A stretch of DNA of 7,445 nucleotides from an uncultured Lachnospiraceae bacterium (GTDB lineage: Bacteria > Bacillota > Clostridia > Lachnospirales > Lachnospiraceae): the NCBI GenBank assembly GCA_946537585.1, contig CAMNFX010000065.1, positions 1-7,445 of the forward strand, in the 5' to 3' direction. A program made the translations under genes and the position numbers. The notes under the pieces were generated by a model. The model saw only the letters and a list, made by a program, of their open reading frames with translations, was not told the origin of the DNA and searched no databases. Numbering within the stretch: the first letter of the stretch is position 1; every line of letters starts with the position of its first letter. Positions 110 to 7,445 of this stretch are shown one piece after another.

Positions 110-946
110 TTACTTTCCGAGCGTTTTAAGCAAGTCTCTCATCAGCTCAATTCCGGGGACTGTCCCCTGCCGGAGCAGTTCTTCTGTTGGTGCGGGTGAG
201 AGATCCGGCTTCCGGGCATAGAACATGCCGGGGAAAAAGAGCGATAGCTTCCCTCCCCTGGCCGAAAGCGCTATCCCGTAATCCTTACAATATGGTGCGA
301 GAGTCTTTGCCGCGCTTTCAAAGCACTTCCTGTCTTCACTTTCCGCAAAACATGCAGCCCAGTTTTCAGGCAGCACGCGCGGCGCTTCTGCCGGTTTCCG
401 GCTGTTATAGTATTCACTGAGGGGAACCAGGCCATCAAATGGCTGTCTCCACAGAATGACCCATTGCTCGCTTTCCGGCAAGCTGTCTTCCGCCACAAGA
501 AGTGTCCCCGATACCGTTTTTCCTGTTATGCTCCCGTTCTTCTCTTTCATCGGCGTGAATGCCGTCTCTGCAACAGTCACATTCCTTTCCGCAATTTGCC
601 CCCGCAGGACATGATAGCGCTGGCTCTGAGGGATGATTCGGATTTCCGGCGTAAGCCCGAGCTCCGGGAGTAATTCTGCCCCGATTTCCTCACGCCTGAC
701 ATAGGTGACGCCCTCCATCGCTTTCTCGGCGGCAGCAATGCTTTCTGCTTCCATCCACGCCGCATTATACGGTCTGCGAACCAGCCAGACACCGATCAGC
801 CGGAAAAGACAGGCAAAAATAATAATTGGAACCGCGCTGTCCCAATGCGATACAAGCGCAAACAAGCCAATCAGGAACAGCACCAGAGAAACCAGTAGTG
901 TAAGGCGTACTCTGTCATGCTGCTTTTTCAAGTTTTCAATCGCCAT
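110..946 (-). CDS. Hypothetical membrane protein with two N-terminal helices
   Basis: This is a 278-residue protein of unknown function. Two hydrophobic helices lie at about residues 14-33 and 38-56. Positive residues before the first (KK, RVR) and after the second (RR) predict that the N-terminus and the long C-terminal part, residues 57-278, are cytoplasmic. The soluble part has an acidic, Ala/Glu-rich helical stretch (about 64-95) and then beta-type segments (LRGQIAERNVTVAETAF, VSGTLLVAED). The layout of paired helices followed by a soluble domain vaguely recalls DUF3137-type proteins, but this is not a firm assignment. The start is supported by AAGGGAG on the minus strand (956-962), 9 bases before the ATG, and by a promoter at 977-1005. 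It is divergent from the regulator and convergent with the gene at 1-57, so it appears monocistronic. No link to sugar-acid metabolism can be seen in the protein. Confidence 0.8.
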   Translation of the reverse strand: MAIENLKKQHDRVRLTLLVSLVLFLIGLFALVSHWDSAVPIIIFACLFRLIGVWLVRRPYNAAWMEAESIAAAEKAMEGVTYVRREEIGAELLPELGLTPEIRIIPQSQRYHVLRGQIAERNVTVAETAFTPMKEKNGSITGKTVSGTLLVAEDSLPESEQWVILWRQPFDGLVPLSEYYNSRKPAEAPRVLPENWAACFAESEDRKCFESAAKTLAPYCKDYGIALSARGGKLSLFFPGMFYARKPDLSPAPTEELLRQGTVPGIELMRDLLKTLGK

Positions 947-1074: not shown

Positions 1075-1103
1075 TTGACACTGCGAAGTTACCCATGTAT
1101 AAT
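1075..1103 (+). promoter_or_regulatory. Consensus sigma-70 promoter of the GntR-family regulator
   Basis: TTGACA at 1075-1080 and TATAAT at 1098-1103 are both perfect consensus hexamers, separated by 17 bases. Transcription would begin near 1110, about 44 bases before the regulator ATG. So strong a promoter in front of a regulator gene implies that repression holds it down, and the spacer, -10 and start region are indeed covered by inverted repeats (1086-1114 and 1108-1128). Confidence 0.85.
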
Positions 1104-1114
1104 ACAGGTAACTT
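1086..1114. promoter_or_regulatory. Inverted repeat spanning the -10 of the regulator promoter
   Basis: AAGTTACC (1086-1093) and GGTAACTT (1107-1114) form a perfect 8-bp inverted repeat with a 13-base spacer holding the -10 box. The right arm is shared with the 21-bp palindrome at 1108-1128, giving three copies of AAGTTAC or its complement in 43 bases. Inside the spacer, TGTAT-A-ATACA (1096-1106) is another short palindrome, offset by one base. This could be an auxiliary regulator site; part of the symmetry comes simply from the TATAAT box. Confidence 0.5.
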
Positions 1115-1128
1115 GTAGGACAAGTTAC
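1108..1128. promoter_or_regulatory. Probable operator of the GntR/FadR-type regulator (site 1)
   Basis: This is a perfect palindrome with 9-bp arms (GTAACTTGT and ACAAGTTAC) around AGG, covering the expected start of transcription of the regulator gene. The core TTGT-AGG-ACAA has the architecture bound by FadR-subfamily regulators. As I recall, the published E. coli DgoR sites have the core TTGTA(G/C)TACA(A/T), which differs from this core at one position. A related copy lies in front of tctC at 1890-1910. Binding, and thus autorepression, is inferred. Confidence 0.75.
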
Positions 1129-1153
1129 AGGGCCGGCTACGGAGATTACTGAG

Positions 1154-1846
1154 ATGGATATTGTCCGGATTGAGAAAATTAATCTTGTCGACGCGGTTTA
1201 TACACAGCTTCGGGATCTCCTCATCTCTGGGAAATGGCCTGAGGGTACAAAGATCCCCAGCGAGAACGAATTATGCAAAGAGTTTTCTGTCAGCCGTGTT
1301 GTGATCCGGGAAGCGTTGCAGAAGCTTCGCGGTGAAAAATTGCTTGTCACTCGACAGGGTGTTGGGACCTATGCTGCCAACCCTTCCAACTTTGAACCTA
1401 CCGAAGAAAAGATCGTCCTGAGTGAAAAGCTGTATCGGGATTTTCTGGATTTCCGTGAAGCGGTCGAGAATACGGCCGTTAAATTATCCAGGCAAACTGC
1501 AACAGAAGAAGATTTCCTGCGGATGGAACAGTGCGTGGATGCCATGCAGGCGGCTTATAAGGACAACGAAGCATATAACCTTGCTGATTTCAATTTTCAT
1601 CTCGCCGTGGTTTCCGCCAGTCACAATGATCTGCTGATCCGCTCTATGGTTGCCAATCAGAATACGATCGTCGGTGTCTTCACCGCAATGAACGCGGTCC
1701 CCGACTCCCGCGGCTTTGGCGTCTCCTCCCACCGTCAGATCGTGGAAAACCTTCGCAATAAGAAAACCCGCCAGGTCATTGACGATTATGCAGAGATGGG
1801 GAAATATAATCTTACAAGACTCCATCATTTCTTTAAAAATACATAG
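1154..1846 (+). CDS. GntR-family (FadR/FCD subfamily) regulator, DgoR-like
   Basis: This 230-residue DNA-binding regulator probably represses its own gene and the transport/catabolic operon downstream. The N-terminal winged helix (about residues 8-75) has the GntR hallmarks: PSENELCKEFSVSR, then VIREALQKLRGEKLL, and the wing RQGVGTY (67-73). The C-terminal FCD effector domain (about 93-222) shows R101 and E105 (FREAVE), the metal-site motif DFNFH with D145 and H149, and H193 (SSHRQI). The third histidine usually found about 22 residues after H193 is not there; M215 or Y218 lies in that stretch, so metal binding may be altered. The length is normal for FadR-type regulators. The start is supported by GGAG at 1141-1144, 9 bases upstream. 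E. coli DgoR, the D-galactonate-responsive repressor, belongs to this subfamily. The effector here is inferred from the adjacent dgoD, not from specific residues. Confidence 0.93.
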   Translation: MDIVRIEKINLVDAVYTQLRDLLISGKWPEGTKIPSENELCKEFSVSRVVIREALQKLRGEKLLVTRQGVGTYAANPSNFEPTEEKIVLSEKLYRDFLDFREAVENTAVKLSRQTATEEDFLRMEQCVDAMQAAYKDNEAYNLADFNFHLAVVSASHNDLLIRSMVANQNTIVGVFTAMNAVPDSRGFGVSSHRQIVENLRNKKTRQVIDDYAEMGKYNLTRLHHFFKNT

Positions 1847-1848
1847 AT

Positions 1849-1881
1849 GAAAGCGCGTCCCTGTTTGTAAGGAACGCTTTC
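1849..1881 (+). terminator. Hairpin after the regulator gene
   Basis: GAAAGCG (1849-1855) pairs with CGCTTTC (1875-1881), with a further TCC/GGA pairing inside. The hairpin starts two bases after the regulator stop and is followed by TCTCTT, a weak T-tract. It could separate regulator transcription from the operon, probably incompletely. Confidence 0.5.
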
Positions 1882-1889
1882 TCTTAAGG

Positions 1890-1910
1890 GTTGCTTGTAT
1901 GACATGTTAT
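1890..1910. promoter_or_regulatory. Probable second operator, upstream of tctC (site 2)
   Basis: Aligned without gaps to the palindrome at 1108-1128, 16 of 21 bases are identical. The shared parts include CTTGTA, GACA and GTTA. The palindrome is imperfect: CTTGT opposes ACATG around ATG, one mismatch in five. It sits between the regulator hairpin and the tctC leader, where an operator for the transport/catabolic operon is expected. The imperfect match suggests weaker binding than at site 1. Confidence 0.6.
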
Positions 1911-1927
1911 ATGTTATATGTTATGTG
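1899..1927 (+). promoter_or_regulatory. Candidate operon promoter upstream of tctC
   Basis: ATGACA (1899-1904, 5 of 6 to the -35 consensus) lies 17 bases before TATGTG (1922-1927, 3 of 6). This would place site 2 across the -35 region. An alternative pairing is TTGCTT (1891-1896) with TATATG (1915-1920) at 18 bases. Neither is strong and I cannot decide between them; an operon promoter in this stretch is likely on context. Confidence 0.35.
1904..1924 (+). repeat. Three tandem copies of ATGTTAT
   Basis: Three perfect head-to-tail heptamers begin inside the second operator and continue through the candidate promoter. Each junction creates a TATATG, a -10-like hexamer. It may be incidental AT-rich promoter sequence or a short slippable repeat that sets promoter spacing. 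Confidence 0.65.
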
Positions 1928-1943
1928 GTTGTTGTGATCAATA

Positions 1944-1957
1944 GACCTGAAAAGGTC
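1944..1957 (+). other. Small leader hairpin with GAAA tetraloop
   Basis: GACCT and AGGTC pair around GAAA, a GNRA-class tetraloop, 15 bases before the tctC ribosome binding site. At 5 bp it is marginal by length but the loop is a stabilising type. It might protect the leader RNA; no riboswitch or attenuator structure was recognised around it. Confidence 0.3.
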
Positions 1958-1987
1958 ATTGAAATATTTTTCAGAAGGAGCGTACCC

Positions 1988-2956
1988 ATGAAAAATCTCA
2001 AGATCCTCGTCGCAATGGTCCTTGTCGTGCTGATGCTCGGCACCTCCGCAGTTGCCTTCGCCGATTATCCCGAGAAGGCAATCGAAGTCCTGATCCCCGC
2101 GGGTCCCGGTGGCGACACTGATACTACTGTCCGTGCCATCACTGCCTCCCTGACAGAGCTGCTTGGTCAGCCTGTTGTTGTGACCAACATGCCTGGTGGT
2201 GCCGGTACGGTCGCCATGACCGAACTGCAGAATCGGGATGCCGATGGCTACACGGTGTTCTATCACCATGTCGATACCCTGCTGCTTGAGCTGCTGGGCC
2301 GCATGGATGAAGACTGGAAGTGGGAAGATGCACTTGACATCTCCGCAGTAACCGGTGGCGGCAACACGTATTGCCTCTTTGTCCGTAAGGACAACGACAA
2401 AGGCCTGAAGACCTTTGAAGATGTCGTGAACTACGCCCGCGAGAATCCCTATGAGCTGACCTATGCTGTCGAAATGGGCGGAACTCTCCACATGCACGCA
2501 CTTGCCCTTATGCAGGCCCTTGATATCGAAGTTGACTGCATCGACCTTGGCGCTGCCAGTGACCGCACTGTCGCTTTCCTCGGTGGTCAGTGCGACATTC
2601 TGGAAGGTCTCTACAGCCAGGGCAAGGAATACATCGAGACCGGTGATTTCATTCCTCTGTGCGTCCTCGGCAATGAGCGCAACGAAAACTTCCCCGACAT
2701 CCCCTGCTCTGACGAGCTTGGCTTCCCCTTTGGCGCAGAGTGGTTCTACTACTTTGGATTCAAGAAGGGCACCGATCCTGCAATCGTTGACGCTTTCACT
2801 GCGGCAGTGAAAGAGGCTGTCACAATGGAGCCTTACTCCAATGCTCTGGACCTCTACAACTTCCATGCCAACTTCCAGCCCGGTGAGGATGGCGTTGCAT
2901 TCATGAAGGGCATCCAGGAGGTTTATGCCCCCATGGCAGAAGCTCTGATGGGCTAA
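1988..2956 (+). CDS. tctC: TTT transporter periplasmic/extracytoplasmic binding protein (TctC/Bug family)
   Basis: This 322-residue solute-binding protein of a tripartite tricarboxylate-type transporter captures the substrate and delivers it to TctA/TctB. A Sec signal peptide covers about residues 1-25 (two Lys, hydrophobic run, AVAFA before D26) and contains no lipobox cysteine. The mature protein opens with YPEKAIEVLIPAGPGGDTD, the Bug-family first motif with GG at 41-42, D45 and R49. The second family motif follows: VVVTNMPGGAGTVA and then DADGYT. The length matches the family. AGAAGGAG at 1973-1980, 7 bases upstream, fixes the start; an in-frame ATG at 1895 would lie in the promoter region and puts a non-signal sequence ahead of the signal peptide. 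The mature part has five cysteines, unusual for an exported protein and suggestive of an anaerobe. Proline is never encoded by CCG here (0 of 14), unlike dgoD. The family binds citrate, dicarboxylates, aromatic acids and other carboxylates; an aldonate ligand is inferred from the neighbours. Confidence 0.93.
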   Translation: MKNLKILVAMVLVVLMLGTSAVAFADYPEKAIEVLIPAGPGGDTDTTVRAITASLTELLGQPVVVTNMPGGAGTVAMTELQNRDADGYTVFYHHVDTLLLELLGRMDEDWKWEDALDISAVTGGGNTYCLFVRKDNDKGLKTFEDVVNYARENPYELTYAVEMGGTLHMHALALMQALDIEVDCIDLGAASDRTVAFLGGQCDILEGLYSQGKEYIETGDFIPLCVLGNERNENFPDIPCSDELGFPFGAEWFYYFGFKKGTDPAIVDAFTAAVKEAVTMEPYSNALDLYNFHANFQPGEDGVAFMKGIQEVYAPMAEALMG

Positions 2957-3056: not shown

Positions 3057-3644
3057 ATGGACAACAAACAAAGAAAGAATTATACCGATCTCATCTCGGG
3101 GCTGGTCGTCATGGCTCTCGCTGCCTTTTTCTATTGGACGACCATTGGTACAAAATCCTTCATGAAGGCTGGTCGTGGCCGCCTTGCACCCGATGCCATT
3201 CCAAAAGCCGTGGCCATCGCCATGTTTGTTCTTGGCATCATCATCATCGTTAAGTGGATCATCAGCTCTTCCCGTGGGAAAGTCCCCCCTCTGGAAATCG
3301 TCGATGACAGCGAAGACTGTGTTGGCATGACAGAGGCACAGATCCGCAATCGTCATCTTTTCCAGAAAATCACCATGCCCCTTACACTGCTGCTGATTCT
3401 TCTGTATCTCATCGCAATGCCCCGTATCGGTTTTACCATTTCCACTTTCTGCTTTCTGACCTTACAGATTACGCTGCTTTCTGCAGACCTCTCCGCAAAA
3501 AGCTGGCTGAAAAACCTTCTGATTGCCTTGATTGCCACTTTGGTGATCTACATTATTTTTGGCTGCGCCTTTGGTCTTGCCGTTCCGAAAGTATCGCCTG
3601 TAGATCTCGGGCTGGGTTATCTCTATCGGTCTGTTTTCGGCTGA
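3057..3644 (+). CDS. tctB: TTT transporter small membrane subunit (TctB family)
   Basis: This 195-residue small integral membrane partner of TctA is poorly conserved as a family and of unclear mechanistic role. Five hydrophobic segments are visible at about residues 12-30, 50-70, 105-120, 124-142 and 152-172, with a hydrophilic loop (about 71-104) containing an acidic patch (DDSEDC). TctB proteins are usually described with four or five helices and about 150-200 residues, so the length fits. The N-terminal pattern DLISGLVVMALAAFFYW and the following LAPDAIPKAVAIAMF resemble the typical TctB opening, where a Phe-Pro or similar pair precedes helix 2. The assignment rests largely on position between tctC and tctA. 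The start is decided by GGGAGG at 3041-3046. It follows tctC by 100 bases containing a hairpin, and precedes tctA by 28 bases. Confidence 0.87.
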   Translation: MDNKQRKNYTDLISGLVVMALAAFFYWTTIGTKSFMKAGRGRLAPDAIPKAVAIAMFVLGIIIIVKWIISSSRGKVPPLEIVDDSEDCVGMTEAQIRNRHLFQKITMPLTLLLILLYLIAMPRIGFTISTFCFLTLQITLLSADLSAKSWLKNLLIALIATLVIYIIFGCAFGLAVPKVSPVDLGLGYLYRSVFG

Positions 3645-3672: not shown

Positions 3673-5199
3673 ATGCTGCAATTATTTGCCCAAGGTTTCC
3701 AACAGATGGCCAGTTGGCTGAACATAGCCATGGTCGCGTTCGGTGTATTTTTGGGCGTTGTTTTCGGCTGTGTGCCCGGTCTCAACGGGAATACTGCTCT
3801 GGTTCTGGTTCTTCCTCTCTCTTACAAACTGCCCCGCATGGCGGCCTTTGCTTTGATCATGGGCATCTATATAGGCTCCTGCTCCGGCGGTCTGATCTCT
3901 GCCATTCTTTTGAACATCCCCGGTGCTGCTTCAAACGTGGCGACTCAGTTTGACGGTGCTCCCATGGCACGGAAAGGAGAAGCCGGGAAGGCCCTTGGAA
4001 CCGGTATCTTCTACTCATTTTTAGGATCCATCATCGGTTTTATTGCACTGTTCTTCCTGTCCGGCCCCGTTGCCAGCATTGCCATCAACTTTGGGAAGGC
4101 CGACTACTTCTGGATGGCTTTCTTTGCCCTGACGATGGTGATCTCTCTCTCCAGCAAGAACCTTTGGAAAGGCCTCGCCGTGGCCTGCCTGGGTTTACTT
4201 TGTTCCTTTATCGGCGCGTCAGAAGTTGACGGCACCACCCGCATGACCTTGGGGATTCATGCTCTGGATGCCGGCATAAACCTGATTCCGGCGCTGATCG
4301 GTATCTATGCCGTCGGCGAGCTGATCAATGCTTCCAAGTCTTTCGATAAGAAAGTCAAGATTGAAACCAACTACAAGATTAAGGGTTTCGGCTTTTCCTG
4401 GCTGGAATTCAAAGAGCAGTTTGTGAATATGCTCACATCCGGCGTAGTGGGCGCTTTCATTGGTATTCTGCCCGGCATCGGCGGCATGACAGCCAACCTT
4501 GTGGCCTACTCTGTTTCCAAATCCACCTCCAAGCATCCGGAAAAATACGGCAAAGGGTACATGGGTGGTCTGGTTGCATCTGAGACTGCCAATAATGCCT
4601 GTGTCGGCGGTGCGATGATCCCACTGTTTGCCCTTGGTATTCCGGGAGATACCTTCACCGCGGTTATGCTGGGCGTCATGATGGTTCACGGCCTCCAGCC
4701 GGGTCCCCTGGTCATGACCAAGAATGCGGATTTCATCTACGGCATTTTCGTTGCGCTGATGCTGGCGAATATTTTCTGCGTGATTCTTCAGTATTTTGGC
4801 ATCAAGCTGTTCGTTCGCATGCTCGCGGTTCCCAAGCATATCCTTCTGCCTATTATCATGGTCCTGTCCCTTGTCGGTGCGATCGCTGTCAATAACCGGA
4901 TCTTCGACGCATGGATCGTGTTGATTTTCGGTATTGTCGGTATTGTCATGAATAAATTGGAATTCCCTATTACCCCCATTATCCTTGGCTTTATTCTTGG
5001 TCCCCTGGCAGAAACCAACCTGCGCCGTGCACTGATGGTAAGCAAGGGTGCTTTTCTTCCCCTCATCTCCAATACTCCTTCCATCATTCTGATTTCCCTT
5101 TCTGTCCTGTCGCTTATTCTGGCCCCGCGTCTTCTGAAGCGTGAAGCCAAAGCACAGGCTGAGCAGGAGGCCCTGGAAACATCAAACTCTGCAGAATAA
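3673..5199 (+). CDS. tctA: TTT transporter large membrane subunit (TctA family)
   Basis: This 508-residue main permease of the tripartite system couples substrate entry to an ion gradient and uses no ATP. The protein is an internal duplication, and both repeats show the family signatures. In the first half these are VPGLNGNTALVLVLPLS (34-50) and GIYIGSCSGGLISAILLNIPG (64-84), followed by FDGAPMARKGEAGKALG (93-109). In the second half they are LPGIGGMTANLVAYSVSK (266-283), GGLVASETANNACVGGAMIP (298-317) and LGIPGDTFTAVML to HGLQPGP (321-345). The C-terminal tail (about 488-508) is short, charged and cytoplasmic. The length matches the family. AAAGGAG at 3658-3664 lies 8 bases before the ATG. 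It sits 28 bases after tctB and 20 bases before dgoD, so transport and catabolism share a transcript. In the first repeat, GLNGNT replaces the more usual GLGPT; whether this bears on substrate cannot be told by eye. Confidence 0.96.
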   Translation: MLQLFAQGFQQMASWLNIAMVAFGVFLGVVFGCVPGLNGNTALVLVLPLSYKLPRMAAFALIMGIYIGSCSGGLISAILLNIPGAASNVATQFDGAPMARKGEAGKALGTGIFYSFLGSIIGFIALFFLSGPVASIAINFGKADYFWMAFFALTMVISLSSKNLWKGLAVACLGLLCSFIGASEVDGTTRMTLGIHALDAGINLIPALIGIYAVGELINASKSFDKKVKIETNYKIKGFGFSWLEFKEQFVNMLTSGVVGAFIGILPGIGGMTANLVAYSVSKSTSKHPEKYGKGYMGGLVASETANNACVGGAMIPLFALGIPGDTFTAVMLGVMMVHGLQPGPLVMTKNADFIYGIFVALMLANIFCVILQYFGIKLFVRMLAVPKHILLPIIMVLSLVGAIAVNNRIFDAWIVLIFGIVGIVMNKLEFPITPIILGFILGPLAETNLRRALMVSKGAFLPLISNTPSIILISLSVLSLILAPRLLKREAKAQAEQEALETSNSAE

Positions 5200-5219: not shown

Positions 5220-6365
5220 ATGAAAATTGCGAAACTCGAACTATTTAAAGTCCCGCCCCGCTGGCTGTTCCTTAAGATGACCACGGATGACGGTCTGGTC
5301 GGCTGGGGCGAGCCGGTCTGTGAGGGCAAGGCAGACAGTGTCGCCGCTGCCGTGAAAGAACTCGGCGACCAGCTGATCGGGCACAGCGCCACAGATGTTG
5401 AGGATGCGTTCCAGCAGATGTATCGTACCAGCTTCTACCGCGGCGGTCCGATCCTGACCAGCGCAATCTCCGGGATTGAACAGGCGATGTGGGACATCAA
5501 GGGCAAAGCGCTGGGCGTGCCGGTTTATGATCTGCTCGGGGGCAAGTGCCGCGACCGGATCGAAGTCTATCGCTGGATCGGCGGAGATCATCCCCGGGAT
5601 ACCGGGAACGAAGCCAAAGTCGCCGCTTCCCAGGGCTACAAGGCCGTCAAGATGAACGGAACGGACGAGCTGCGCTGGATTGACACCTATGACAAGCTGG
5701 AGGCCACGGTGGAACGCGTGGCTGCGATTCAGGAGGCTGTCCCCGGCATGCGTATTGCGGTCGACTTTCACGGCCGCGTCCACAAGACCATGGCCAAGCA
5801 GCTGATCCACATGCTCGAGCCTTATCACCTCATGTTCATCGAGGAACCGGTCCTGTGTGAAAATGAGGATGAATTCCTGGAGTTTGCCCGCGGCAGCTAC
5901 ACGCCGATTGCCACCGGCGAGCGGAATTTCACCCGTTGGGGATTTAAGCACATGCTCACCCGCGGCGGTGTTGATATTGTCCAGCCGGATGTCAGCCATT
6001 GCGGCGGCATTCTCGAGGCGCGCAAGATTGCGGCCATGGCGGAAGCCTTTGACGTCTCTGTCGCTCTGCACTGCCCGCTCGGTCCGATTGCGCTGGCCTC
6101 CTGCCTGCAGGTCGACTTCTGCTCGCCGAATGCCTTTATTCAGGAGCAGAGTGCCGGCATTCACTATAACGCCGGCTATGACATTCTTAACTATCTGAAC
6201 AATCCCGAAGTCTTCCAGTGGAAAGACGGTTATTGTGACCTGATGACCCTGCCCGGCCTCGGAGTTGATATCAACGAAGCGTACGTGCGCGAGATGGCGG
6301 CCAAAGGCCATGACTGGCACAACCCCATCTGGCGCGACAGCGACGGCGTTATAGCCGAGTGGTAA
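5220..6365 (+). CDS. dgoD: D-galactonate dehydratase (enolase superfamily, MR/MLE type)
   Basis: This 381-residue cytoplasmic enzyme is predicted to dehydrate D-galactonate to 2-dehydro-3-deoxy-D-galactonate with Mg2+. The N-terminal capping domain opens MKIAKLELFKVPPRW and holds VGWGEPVCEG and FYRGGPILTSAISGIEQAMWDIKGK, which read like E. coli DgoD as I remember it (382 residues). The barrel domain carries the metal ligands D182, E208 and E234 (DFHGR, IEEP, TGER), a base histidine H184 beside D182, the D257/H284 dyad (QPDVSH, LHCPLGP) and E309 (QEQS). All fall one residue earlier than the DgoD numbering I recall (183, 185, 209, 235, 285, 310). The C-terminus ends WHNPIWR then AEW, also DgoD-like. 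AAAGGA at 5205-5210 lies 9 bases before the ATG. Proline codons are mostly CCG (10 of 17), unlike tctC. A related aldonate as true substrate is possible, but galactonate is by far the best call. Confidence 0.95.
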   Translation: MKIAKLELFKVPPRWLFLKMTTDDGLVGWGEPVCEGKADSVAAAVKELGDQLIGHSATDVEDAFQQMYRTSFYRGGPILTSAISGIEQAMWDIKGKALGVPVYDLLGGKCRDRIEVYRWIGGDHPRDTGNEAKVAASQGYKAVKMNGTDELRWIDTYDKLEATVERVAAIQEAVPGMRIAVDFHGRVHKTMAKQLIHMLEPYHLMFIEEPVLCENEDEFLEFARGSYTPIATGERNFTRWGFKHMLTRGGVDIVQPDVSHCGGILEARKIAAMAEAFDVSVALHCPLGPIALASCLQVDFCSPNAFIQEQSAGIHYNAGYDILNYLNNPEVFQWKDGYCDLMTLPGLGVDINEAYVREMAAKGHDWHNPIWRDSDGVIAEW

Positions 6366-6379: not shown

Positions 6380-7039
6380 ATGAGAGAACAGGTTCTGCAG
6401 TACGTTGACCAGTATAAGATCATAGCGATTGTCCGCGGTGCGGATCCCAAACAGTGCTTTGCGGTTGCCGAGGCGCTGTATGCCGGCGGGATCAGACTGA
6501 TGGAAGTTACCTATGACCAGAAAAAGCCGGAGACCTGGCAGGCTACCGCCGACACCATCGGTGCTCTGGCAAAGGAGTATGAAGGCAGAATGTTCGTCGG
6601 GGCAGGCACTGTCACTTCGCCGGAACTGGTCGAACTTACTGCAAAGGCAGGCGGCGCCTTCATCATTTCCCCGGACACGGATGTCGCCGTCATCAAACGC
6701 ACCAGAGAACTGGGTCTGGTTTCCATGCCGGGTGCACTCACGCCCAGCGAGATCAAAACCGCCCATAATGCCGGTGCGGACTATGTGAAAGTATTCCCCC
6801 TCGGCTCCATGGGTCCCGGCTATCTGAAAGCCATCCGTGCACCGCTCAGTCATATCAAAATGACTGCCGTGGGCGGCATCAATGAGAAGAATCTGAAGGA
6901 ATACCTGGAAGCAGGCGCCTGCGGTGCCGGCATCGGCGGCAATCTCGCAAACAAGAAGTGGATCGAGAACGGCGAATTCGATAAGATCACCGAAGTGGCA
7001 AAGCAGCTGGTCCAGGTCGTCGAAGAGTTTGGAAAGTGA
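6380..7039 (+). CDS. 2-dehydro-3-deoxy-6-phosphogalactonate/KDPG aldolase (Eda/DgoA family)
   Basis: This 219-residue class I aldolase is predicted to split 2-keto-3-deoxy-6-phosphogalactonate into pyruvate and glyceraldehyde-3-phosphate. The TIM barrel shows the family landmarks in order: IAIVRG with R19, the catalytic glutamate E42 in LMEVTYD, the phosphate/substrate loop VGAGTV (73-78), SPD (97-99), MPGALTPSEI (116-125), the Schiff-base lysine K137 in YVKVFP, GPGYLKAI (145-152), and AVGGIN (163-168) with GAGIGGNL at the end. The length is typical (about 205-220). The family divides into Eda (KDPG/KHG) and DgoA (KDPGal) types that cannot be separated by eye. The neighbouring dgoD favours KDPGal, but the enzyme may accept both C4 epimers. 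The start is set by AAAGGAGG at 6364-6371. It sits 14 bases after dgoD and 18 before the kinase gene. Confidence 0.93.
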   Translation: MREQVLQYVDQYKIIAIVRGADPKQCFAVAEALYAGGIRLMEVTYDQKKPETWQATADTIGALAKEYEGRMFVGAGTVTSPELVELTAKAGGAFIISPDTDVAVIKRTRELGLVSMPGALTPSEIKTAHNAGADYVKVFPLGSMGPGYLKAIRAPLSHIKMTAVGGINEKNLKEYLEAGACGAGIGGNLANKKWIENGEFDKITEVAKQLVQVVEEFGK

Positions 7040-7057: not shown

Positions 7058-7445
7058 ATGAAAAAAGTAATTACGTTCGGTGAAATCATGATGCGTCTGA
7101 ATCCCCCCGGATATCAGCGCTTTGTTCAGACCACGGTTTTTGAGGCCACCTACGCCGGCGGTGAGGCAAACGTCGCGGTCTCCCTGGCCAACTACAAAAA
7201 CGACGTCGCCTATGTCTCCAAAGTGCCCGACAACGAGATCGGTCAGAATGCCATCAACGCACTTCGCCGTTACGGTGTGGACACTTCCCTTATGCAGGTC
7301 GGCGGTCCCCGTCTGGGCATCTACTTCTGCGAGAAGGGCGCCTCCCAGCGCGGCAGCAAGGTAATCTATGACCGCGCGGGCTCCTCCATCGCGCTGGCAA
7401 AGCGGGATGAGTTCAACTGGGATGAGATCTTCACAGACGTCGACT
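7058..7445 (+). CDS. kdgK: 2-dehydro-3-deoxygluconate/galactonate kinase, PfkB family (5' part)
   Basis: The first 129 residues of a sugar kinase are present; the gene runs off the window. It is predicted to phosphorylate the 2-keto-3-deoxy sugar acid made by DgoD, giving the aldolase its substrate. The N-terminus MKKVITFGEIMMRLNPPG is typical of KdgK-type PfkB kinases. YAGGEANVAVSLA (32-44) is the family glycine/asparagine signature. Residues Y89, Y104 and R106 (GIYF; VIYDR) sit where KDG kinases contact the keto-acid substrate, as I recall from the thermophile structures. The ATP-site and catalytic aspartate region (GAGD motif) lie beyond the window. AGGGAGG at 7042-7048, 9 bases upstream, selects this ATG over an in-frame ATG at 7049. 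E. coli uses an unrelated kinase (DgoK) for the same step. Sugar specificity between KDG and KDGal cannot be settled here. Confidence 0.92.
   Translation, partial: MKKVITFGEIMMRLNPPGYQRFVQTTVFEATYAGGEANVAVSLANYKNDVAYVSKVPDNEIGQNAINALRRYGVDTSLMQVGGPRLGIYFCEKGASQRGSKVIYDRAGSSIALAKRDEFNWDEIFTDVD

Follow-up and report, generated by a model that had tools for sequence, protein, structure and literature searches.

Paired palindromic sites around a DgoR-like regulator gene as likely operators of a clostridial galactonate operon

The window, that is, the whole stretch of 7,445 nt analysed here (contig CAMNFX010000065.1 of the uncultured Lachnospiraceae assembly GCA_946537585.1), carries a GntR-type regulator gene followed by genes for a tripartite tricarboxylate transporter and for galactonate catabolism:

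110..946, minus strand: putative divergent gene, 278 aa; an open reading frame and conserved neighbour of the regulator
1075..1103, plus strand: promoter P1, TTGACA-17-TATAAT; 12 of 12 consensus bases, beaten by 0 of 300 shuffles
1108..1128, plus strand: candidate operator site 1, a 9-3-9 palindrome covering the predicted transcription start; rank 1 in the window with the leave-out matrix
1154..1846, plus strand: gntR, FadR-subfamily GntR regulator, clostridial DgoR-like, 230 aa; Pfam GntR and FCD
1845..1884, plus strand: terminator-like hairpin 3′ of the regulator gene, weak U tail; fold −12.6 kcal/mol, z −1.6
1890..1910, plus strand: candidate operator site 2 in the gntR–tctC spacer, T at position 16
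1904..1924, plus strand: ATGTTAT tandem repeat, three copies, copy 1 inside the right half of site 2
1938..1962, plus strand: leader hairpin, 25 nt 5′ of the tctC ATG
1988..2956, plus strand: tctC, solute-binding protein of the tripartite tricarboxylate transporter; Pfam TctC
3057..3644, plus strand: tctB; Pfam TctB
3673..5199, plus strand: tctA; Pfam TctA
5220..6365, plus strand: dgoD, galactonate dehydratase; NCBIfam equivalog PRK14017.1, 608 bits against a cut-off of 311
6380..7039, plus strand: KDPG/KDPGal-type aldolase; Pfam Aldolase, TIGR01182 161.9 against a cut-off of 156
7061..7445, plus strand: start of a PfkB sugar kinase, KDG/KDGal kinase-like; gene cut at the window end

The divergent gene had no Pfam or NCBIfam match. 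Against Rfam, nothing reached the gathering score across the window, and within 1840–2000 nothing appeared up to E 1.

Site 1 reads GTAACTTGT-AGG-ACAAGTTAC; it starts 4 nt 3′ of the P1 TATAAT and ends 25 nt 5′ of the gntR ATG. The first-pass annotation had described it as a perfect 21-bp palindrome. This holds for the 9-bp arms, but the 3-nt centre AGG is not self-complementary, so that strictly 18 of 21 bases equal the reverse complement. Site 2, GTTGCTTGT-ATG-ACATGTTAT, ends 77 nt 5′ of the tctC ATG. It had been put forward as a degenerate copy of site 1, and our analysis bore this out: 16 of 21 bases are identical, with 13 at the runner-up position on the same strand. In shuffled windows a perfect 9-3-9 palindrome arose in 7 of 300 and a 16/21 match to site 1 anywhere in 5 of 300; in shuffled gntR–tctC spacers such a match arose in 2 of 5000. 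The paired-site observation is real and exceeds chance. The window holds another perfect 9-3-9 palindrome at 2793–2813, inside tctC and unrelated in sequence, hence the symmetry of site 1 alone proves little. The proof of site 1 is its promoter position together with its copy at site 2 and its conservation, not the palindrome by itself. The core of site 1, TTGTAGGACAA, agrees with the FadR-subfamily operator consensus TKGT-N3-ACMA given in the available passages of PMC4494728. It is one base off IR1 of E. coli dgo, TTGTAGTACAA, as quoted in an excerpt of PMC12288454. Both likenesses had been noted in the first-pass annotation. Part of the head-to-tail ATGTTAT tract (1904–1924) is also present in L031, L034 and L039; the tract may represent extra half-sites or an AT-rich promoter element. 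Extra half-sites 7–12 nt from operator centres are described in PMC4494728.

For comparison across genomes, 84,980 species genomes were scanned with an alignment of 40 of 181 homologues as the query, and the best 80 of 123 confirmed loci were used. Among these best 80, we kept loci with at least 34% identity over nearly the whole regulator, leaving out L035 (a near copy of L034) and L111 (on the same contig as L040). L166 was added later, fetched after the matrix was fixed, and the final set comprises 18 loci, window included. L047–L110 except L062 (at most 33% identity, or partial matches) served as background only, and L115 and L116 were left out of the scan. Three relatives at 33–39%, L167–L169, were scanned and not counted; their best sites scored 21.6, 21.5 and 16.6 bits, and in L169, where the regulator adjoins dgoD, the nearby site reached only 10.8 bits. 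Regulator orthologues were found in 2 of 397 genomes of the family, 3 of 392 of the order and 4 of 391 of the class, own genome included in each count, and in none of 24 other genomes of the genus at E 1e-30. The gene dgoD is linked to the regulator in 17 of the 18 loci, the exception being L041, whose DNA ends 1.4 kb past the regulator. The curated galactonate dehydratase cut-off was passed by all five dehydratases scanned, i.e., that of the window and four others. Uptake genes vary: TctCBA, or TRAP DctPQM in L039 and DctP/DctM in L034. L038 additionally carries DgoK. Between tctA and dgoD, an IlvD/EDD-type dehydratase and an RraA-like gene (families Pfam-checked for one example of each) lie in L031 (12067–14437), L033 (9916–12262) and L037 (12173–14519); they are absent from the window though present in its closest relative, L031.

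The motif matrix is symmetric and was seeded from site 1. Trained without the window and L031, it gave 27.8 bits for site 1, 19.0 for site 2 and 8.7 for the next position in the window. In the background only 2 of 844,022 positions scored 18 or more, at a G+C content of 55% compared with 38–42% in the spacers. When the locus in question was excluded from training, the two sites came out as its top two in 9 of the 10 loci with both. The exception was L033, where they rank first and third and a further operator ranks second. These ranks are only partly independent, as the training sites were picked via a first matrix. L166 is fully independent of the matrix, and its two best positions in 13 kb are again the regulator promoter and the gntR–tctC spacer.

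As a check on the palindromes, the first-pass annotation had suggested comparing orthologous loci, with non-conservation as the refuting outcome. The sites are conserved. A canonical site occupies the regulator promoter in 10 of 18 loci (window, L031, L032, L033, L034, L036, L039, L040, L042 and L166); it is weak in L038, and the matrix scan found none in L037, L041 and L044. In the remaining four (L043, L045, L046 and L062) a wider variant is seen, with the half-sites further apart around the −10 box. An operon-start site occurs in 13 of 18 loci, 11 times in the spacer after gntR and twice (L038, L044) on the divergent side. In L041 a spacer site is present but precedes a different gene, and L032, L043, L045 and L062 gave no operon-start site in the matrix scan. 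Measured co-directional spacers of at least 73 nt carried a site in 10 of 10 cases and those of at most 42 nt in 0 of 4, a count that omits L036 and L040, where the next start codon is not fixed; the gntR spacer of L032 is 42 nt. Among 24 sites from 14 loci, TGT/ACA hardly varies (47, 45 and 48 of 48 half-sites carry these letters). The window and L031 agree at 20 of 21 positions of site 1 and at 17 of 21 of site 2, compared with 33 of 46 in the spacer 5′ of site 2 and 17 of 25 immediately 3′ of site 1.

Some loci show additional features. The wide half-sites resemble AAGTTGTATAAT-N5-ATACAAGTT and lie at the regulator promoter (L043 7953, L045 7952, L046 7959, L062 7643); their GT–AC distance is about 11 nt, and the recognition helix looks unchanged. 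In L041, one motif at 8793 lies 3′ of the regulator before a putative gene (20.9 bits), and a second copy (23.4 bits) follows 1.2 kb on at 10018, near the contig end, on a perfect TTGACA-17-TATAAT promoter. The divergent gene of the window adjoins the regulator also in L031, L032, L033 (4379–5128) and L166, and stands downstream of dgoD in L036. Before it, a third operator copy is found in L033 (5270–5290, 21.8 bits) and L166 (10322–10342, 15.2 bits), on promoter-like sequence in L166 (3 of 300 shuffles) and less clearly so in L033 (20 of 300). Because of these third copies, the divergent gene may be part of the regulon.

A search of 12 genomes with the pattern ACWTGTANKACAWGTTAY returned 4 exact and 10 one-mismatch rows, of which 13 of 14 (11 of 12 distinct places) were at the regulator's own locus. 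When two mismatches were allowed in these genomes, 42 hits stood against 97 in the control, and no regulon was visible beyond the locus. Two of the 12 genomes, those with L036 and L044, gave zero hits, so that there the pattern fails to find even the sites at the locus. In the window's own genome, which is 59% complete and may hold further sites, site 1 was the sole match when the pattern was allowed up to three mismatches (control 2+2). For the shared core, two mismatches at most gave 9 rows against 6 in the control, the exact ones being the two window sites only. Since near-exact hits away from the locus are rare, the regulator looks local. The single one-mismatch hit of the core in the window's own genome, C128:969-984, is at the start codon of a frame judged by eye to be transketolase-like and probably arose by chance. 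Off the locus, a one-mismatch copy was seen in L158 (G826 C3:1042000-1050000), between an unrelated GntR gene and a pair of SDR and enolase-superfamily genes, as judged by eye.

The regulator belongs to the FadR subfamily, with the N-terminal GntR winged helix-turn-helix (PF00392, 71.7 bits) and the C-terminal FCD domain (PF07729, 65.5 bits) both above cut-off. Its best NCBIfam scores, for PdhR (90.5 bits), LldR (90.2) and GlcC (80.5), are far under the respective cut-offs of 330, 311 and 301, and the gene neighbourhood differs from that of these three. When the family profile was compared with solved structures, E. coli DgoR (7c7e) was the best of 36 PDB matches (E 2.2e-26); identity to DgoR is 30% over 178 residues. 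An excerpt of PMC7674646 names Asp146, His150 and His195 as the DgoR metal ligands. The aligned D145, H149 and H193 are invariant in all 18 sequences of an alignment that includes E. coli DgoR and leaves out L166. The same excerpt names 11 ligand-pocket residues, of which five are shared with DgoR (R102, D146, H150, H195 and R224) and six differ. Among the eight non-metal ones (R102, Q173, R179, W181, D184, T191, S221 and R224), six differ, where the alignment of the 173–191 loop is uncertain. All 17 clostridial-type sequences in the alignment have Asn in place of W181 and S221. As judged from these alignments, it appears well supported that the regulator works like DgoR. That it senses D-galactonate in the same way as DgoR is not supported, given the six differing residues of 11.

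Linkage to galactonate catabolic genes, as for DgoR, is seen in the equivalog of the window and in the dgoD genes of the other loci, and so is an inverted repeat overlapping the regulator promoter, namely site 1 on P1. E. coli dgoRKADT likewise has a GntR/FCD regulator with an Asp-His-His metal site and two operator copies that overlap the regulator-gene promoter, and there, too, the regulator gene comes first, followed by kinase, aldolase and dehydratase genes. Its kinase is DgoK, that of the window PfkB-type, and its transporter is DgoT in place of TctCBA. The second E. coli copy, which we read as IR2, lies 21 bp after IR1 in the sequence, in line with the two closely spaced inverted repeats over the promoter reported in the excerpt of PMC12288454. 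Whereas the E. coli repeats thus stand side by side, 21 bp apart, those of the window flank the regulator gene at a distance of 782 bp. FadR-subfamily operators in the passages of PMC4494728 share the TKGT-N3-ACMA core, the GT–AC distance of 3 and A/T-rich flanks. Their survey table holds one clostridial FadR-subfamily regulator, if its column order is as we inferred. Among the open-licence titles listed, none was on a clostridial DgoR regulon.

Promoters were scored with approximate hexamer weights. Promoter-like sequence was found at all 18 regulator genes, with at most 3 of 300 shuffles better in 17 of them and 19 of 300 in L039. At the 10 canonical regulator sites, the −10 ends between 10 nt before the site and 6 nt inside it. 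In contrast, none of 12 co-directional spacer sites (the 11 plus L041) had a promoter better than 31 of 300 shuffles, and in the four short-spacer loci nothing better than 28 of 300 occurred in the 130 nt before the next gene. At both divergent operons, the operator lies on promoter-like sequence (L038 7 of 300, L044 1 of 300). As a promoter is seen at the divergent operons but not in co-directional spacers, P1 was taken as the putative operon promoter and site 2 as a putative internal gate. A −10 at fixed offset from site 2 gave no peak beyond the motif's own contribution. Nevertheless, a terminator-like hairpin before site 2 in the window, L031 and L039 argues against simple read-through in these loci (−17.7 kcal/mol and z −6.2 in L031, weaker in the window). 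Moreover, the tctC leader (1911–1987) is identical between the window and L031 at 74 of 78 positions, compared with 88–93% in six coding genes and with 70% and 80% at third codon positions of gntR and tctC. With the leader more conserved than coding genes, something besides site 2 is constrained there. Such conservation would also fit an internal promoter.

A hairpin 5′ of tctC is found in all seven tct loci examined (window 1938–1962; L031 8785–8809; L032 5084–5107; L033 6642–6662; L037 8801–8820; L036 8817–8836; L166 9282–9302, minus strand); L038 and L040, both with TctC, were left out of this comparison. Its 8–9 pairs are all kept (G–T counted, one bulge omitted), and the stem sequences differ. 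In the six loci with tctC it ends 21–33 nt before the ATG, and in L036 it precedes the gap left by the absence of tctC, tctB and part of tctA. The energy of the leader hairpin is not unusual compared with 54 other leaders.

The first-pass annotation placed the stronger site on the regulator and the weaker on the operon. By score this applies to 7 of the 10 loci with both sites (window, L031, L034, L036, L039, L042 and L166), and the order is reversed in the other three (L033, L038 and L040). In L036, L039, L040 and L166 the two scores differ by only about 1–2 bits. The tight autorepression and easier operon induction deduced from this order are unsupported as written, with a recognisable promoter at 0 of 12 spacer sites compared with 18 of 18 regulator genes. 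The paired sites differ at position 16, which is T in 11 of 11 co-directional spacer sites compared with 2 of 11 at the regulator promoter (Fisher 2.2e-4). If L031 and L166 are set aside, the counts are 9 of 9 and 2 of 9 (0.0023), and with the two divergent sites, both A, operon-side sites have T in 11 of 13 (0.003). The L041 spacer site, left out of this test, has T, as does the second L041 site, which is on a promoter; the single operator of L032 carries T as well. Of the E. coli dgo pair, one copy is ACAA and the other ACAT. A contrast of this kind between paired sites is absent from the passages of PMC4494728. Because position 16 was singled out post hoc from a choice of 21 positions with four bases each, in loci that are related to one another, we regard the apparent difference as a lead.

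Both palindromes are copies of a single conserved motif, and they likely serve as operators of the regulator encoded between them. Hence one regulator likely controls both itself and the operon, as had been predicted, since the sites are conserved and the gene linkage stays the same. The clostridial DgoR relative would keep its own promoter and the galactonate operon repressed as long as no sugar acid of the pathway releases it. By binding site 1, a dimer would cover the P1 transcription start and so block initiation. With no other recognisable promoter before the operon, P1 would likely drive gntR-tctCBA-dgoD-aldolase-kinase by read-through. Site 2 would then act as a second, internal gate that stops polymerase coming from P1, which seems more likely than an action by occluding a weak internal start. 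The signal that opens both gates is likely galactonate or an intermediate further down the pathway. As a whole, we consider this explanation, with operators of a DgoR-like repressor, read-through from P1 and an internal gate at site 2, probable on the strength of the sequence comparisons. More tentative is the specific proposal that a single transcript is controlled at two gates, with initiation stopped at the perfect palindrome and elongation at the asymmetric copy, which has ACAT for ACAA in its right half. If true, this would allow repressor to be made while the pathway genes stay closed.

Alternatively, gntR and tctC might have separate promoters, each with its own operator, so that the weaker site 2 would open the operon first. 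This would suit the lower score of site 2 in the window and in most loci with both sites, the T that marks spacer sites at position 16, the conserved leader and the hairpin that parts the units in the window, L031 and L039. The TTGT of site 2 could even serve as a −35, followed by a poor −10 at equal offset in the window, L031, L039 and L040 and one base further in L166. However, no co-directional spacer site had a promoter better than 31 of 300 shuffles, while one is seen at both divergent operons, which are out of reach for transcription from P1, and the score order is reversed in three loci and nearly level in four. The promoter contrast at the divergent loci makes two gates on one transcript more probable and separate promoters less so, and we think the latter unlikely. 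The two operators could also be joined by DNA looping, with dimers on sites 1 and 2 repressing as a unit across 782 bp. Two distant operators indeed flank the regulator gene in 9 loci (in L038 both are on one side), but their centre distance varies from 757 to 1106 bp in these loci without constant helical phase, which makes looping improbable.

That the sites belong to another FadR-type regulator, with the neighbouring gntR a coincidence, appears very improbable. The genome does have three other GntR matches, and FadR-type motifs are alike in the passages of PMC4494728. Against this, nearly all near-exact matches in the 12 genomes fall at the locus of this regulator, and the sites stay with it while transporter families change. 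Finally, rather than being a DNA operator, site 1 might function in the gntR mRNA, as a hairpin at its 5′ end, and the site 1 RNA does fold well (−13.6 kcal/mol, z −3.3). Over the 24 sites, however, outer pairs frequently fail to form (6/16 is present in 7 of 24 and 1/21 in 11 of 24), whereas TGT/ACA hardly varies, and sites also occur in spacers and on the divergent promoters of L038 and L044. Because its pairs are not kept, we rejected this role, which we hold to be scarcely credible.

Most likely, therefore, the locus is a clostridial DgoR-type autoregulated operon whose operators are split around the regulator gene. Its control is likely of a known kind, and the split arrangement and the position-16 difference would be the points worth testing. 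DgoR-type galactonate control would thereby reach beyond enterobacteria to clostridial bacteria, many of which are represented by metagenomes alone, and the operator motif could be used for regulon annotation. The locus also offers a case for testing how one repressor may act through two operators that flank its own gene at a distance from each other and differ systematically. A further prediction would concern galactonate uptake in these organisms, namely which TTT or TRAP transporters are responsible for it.
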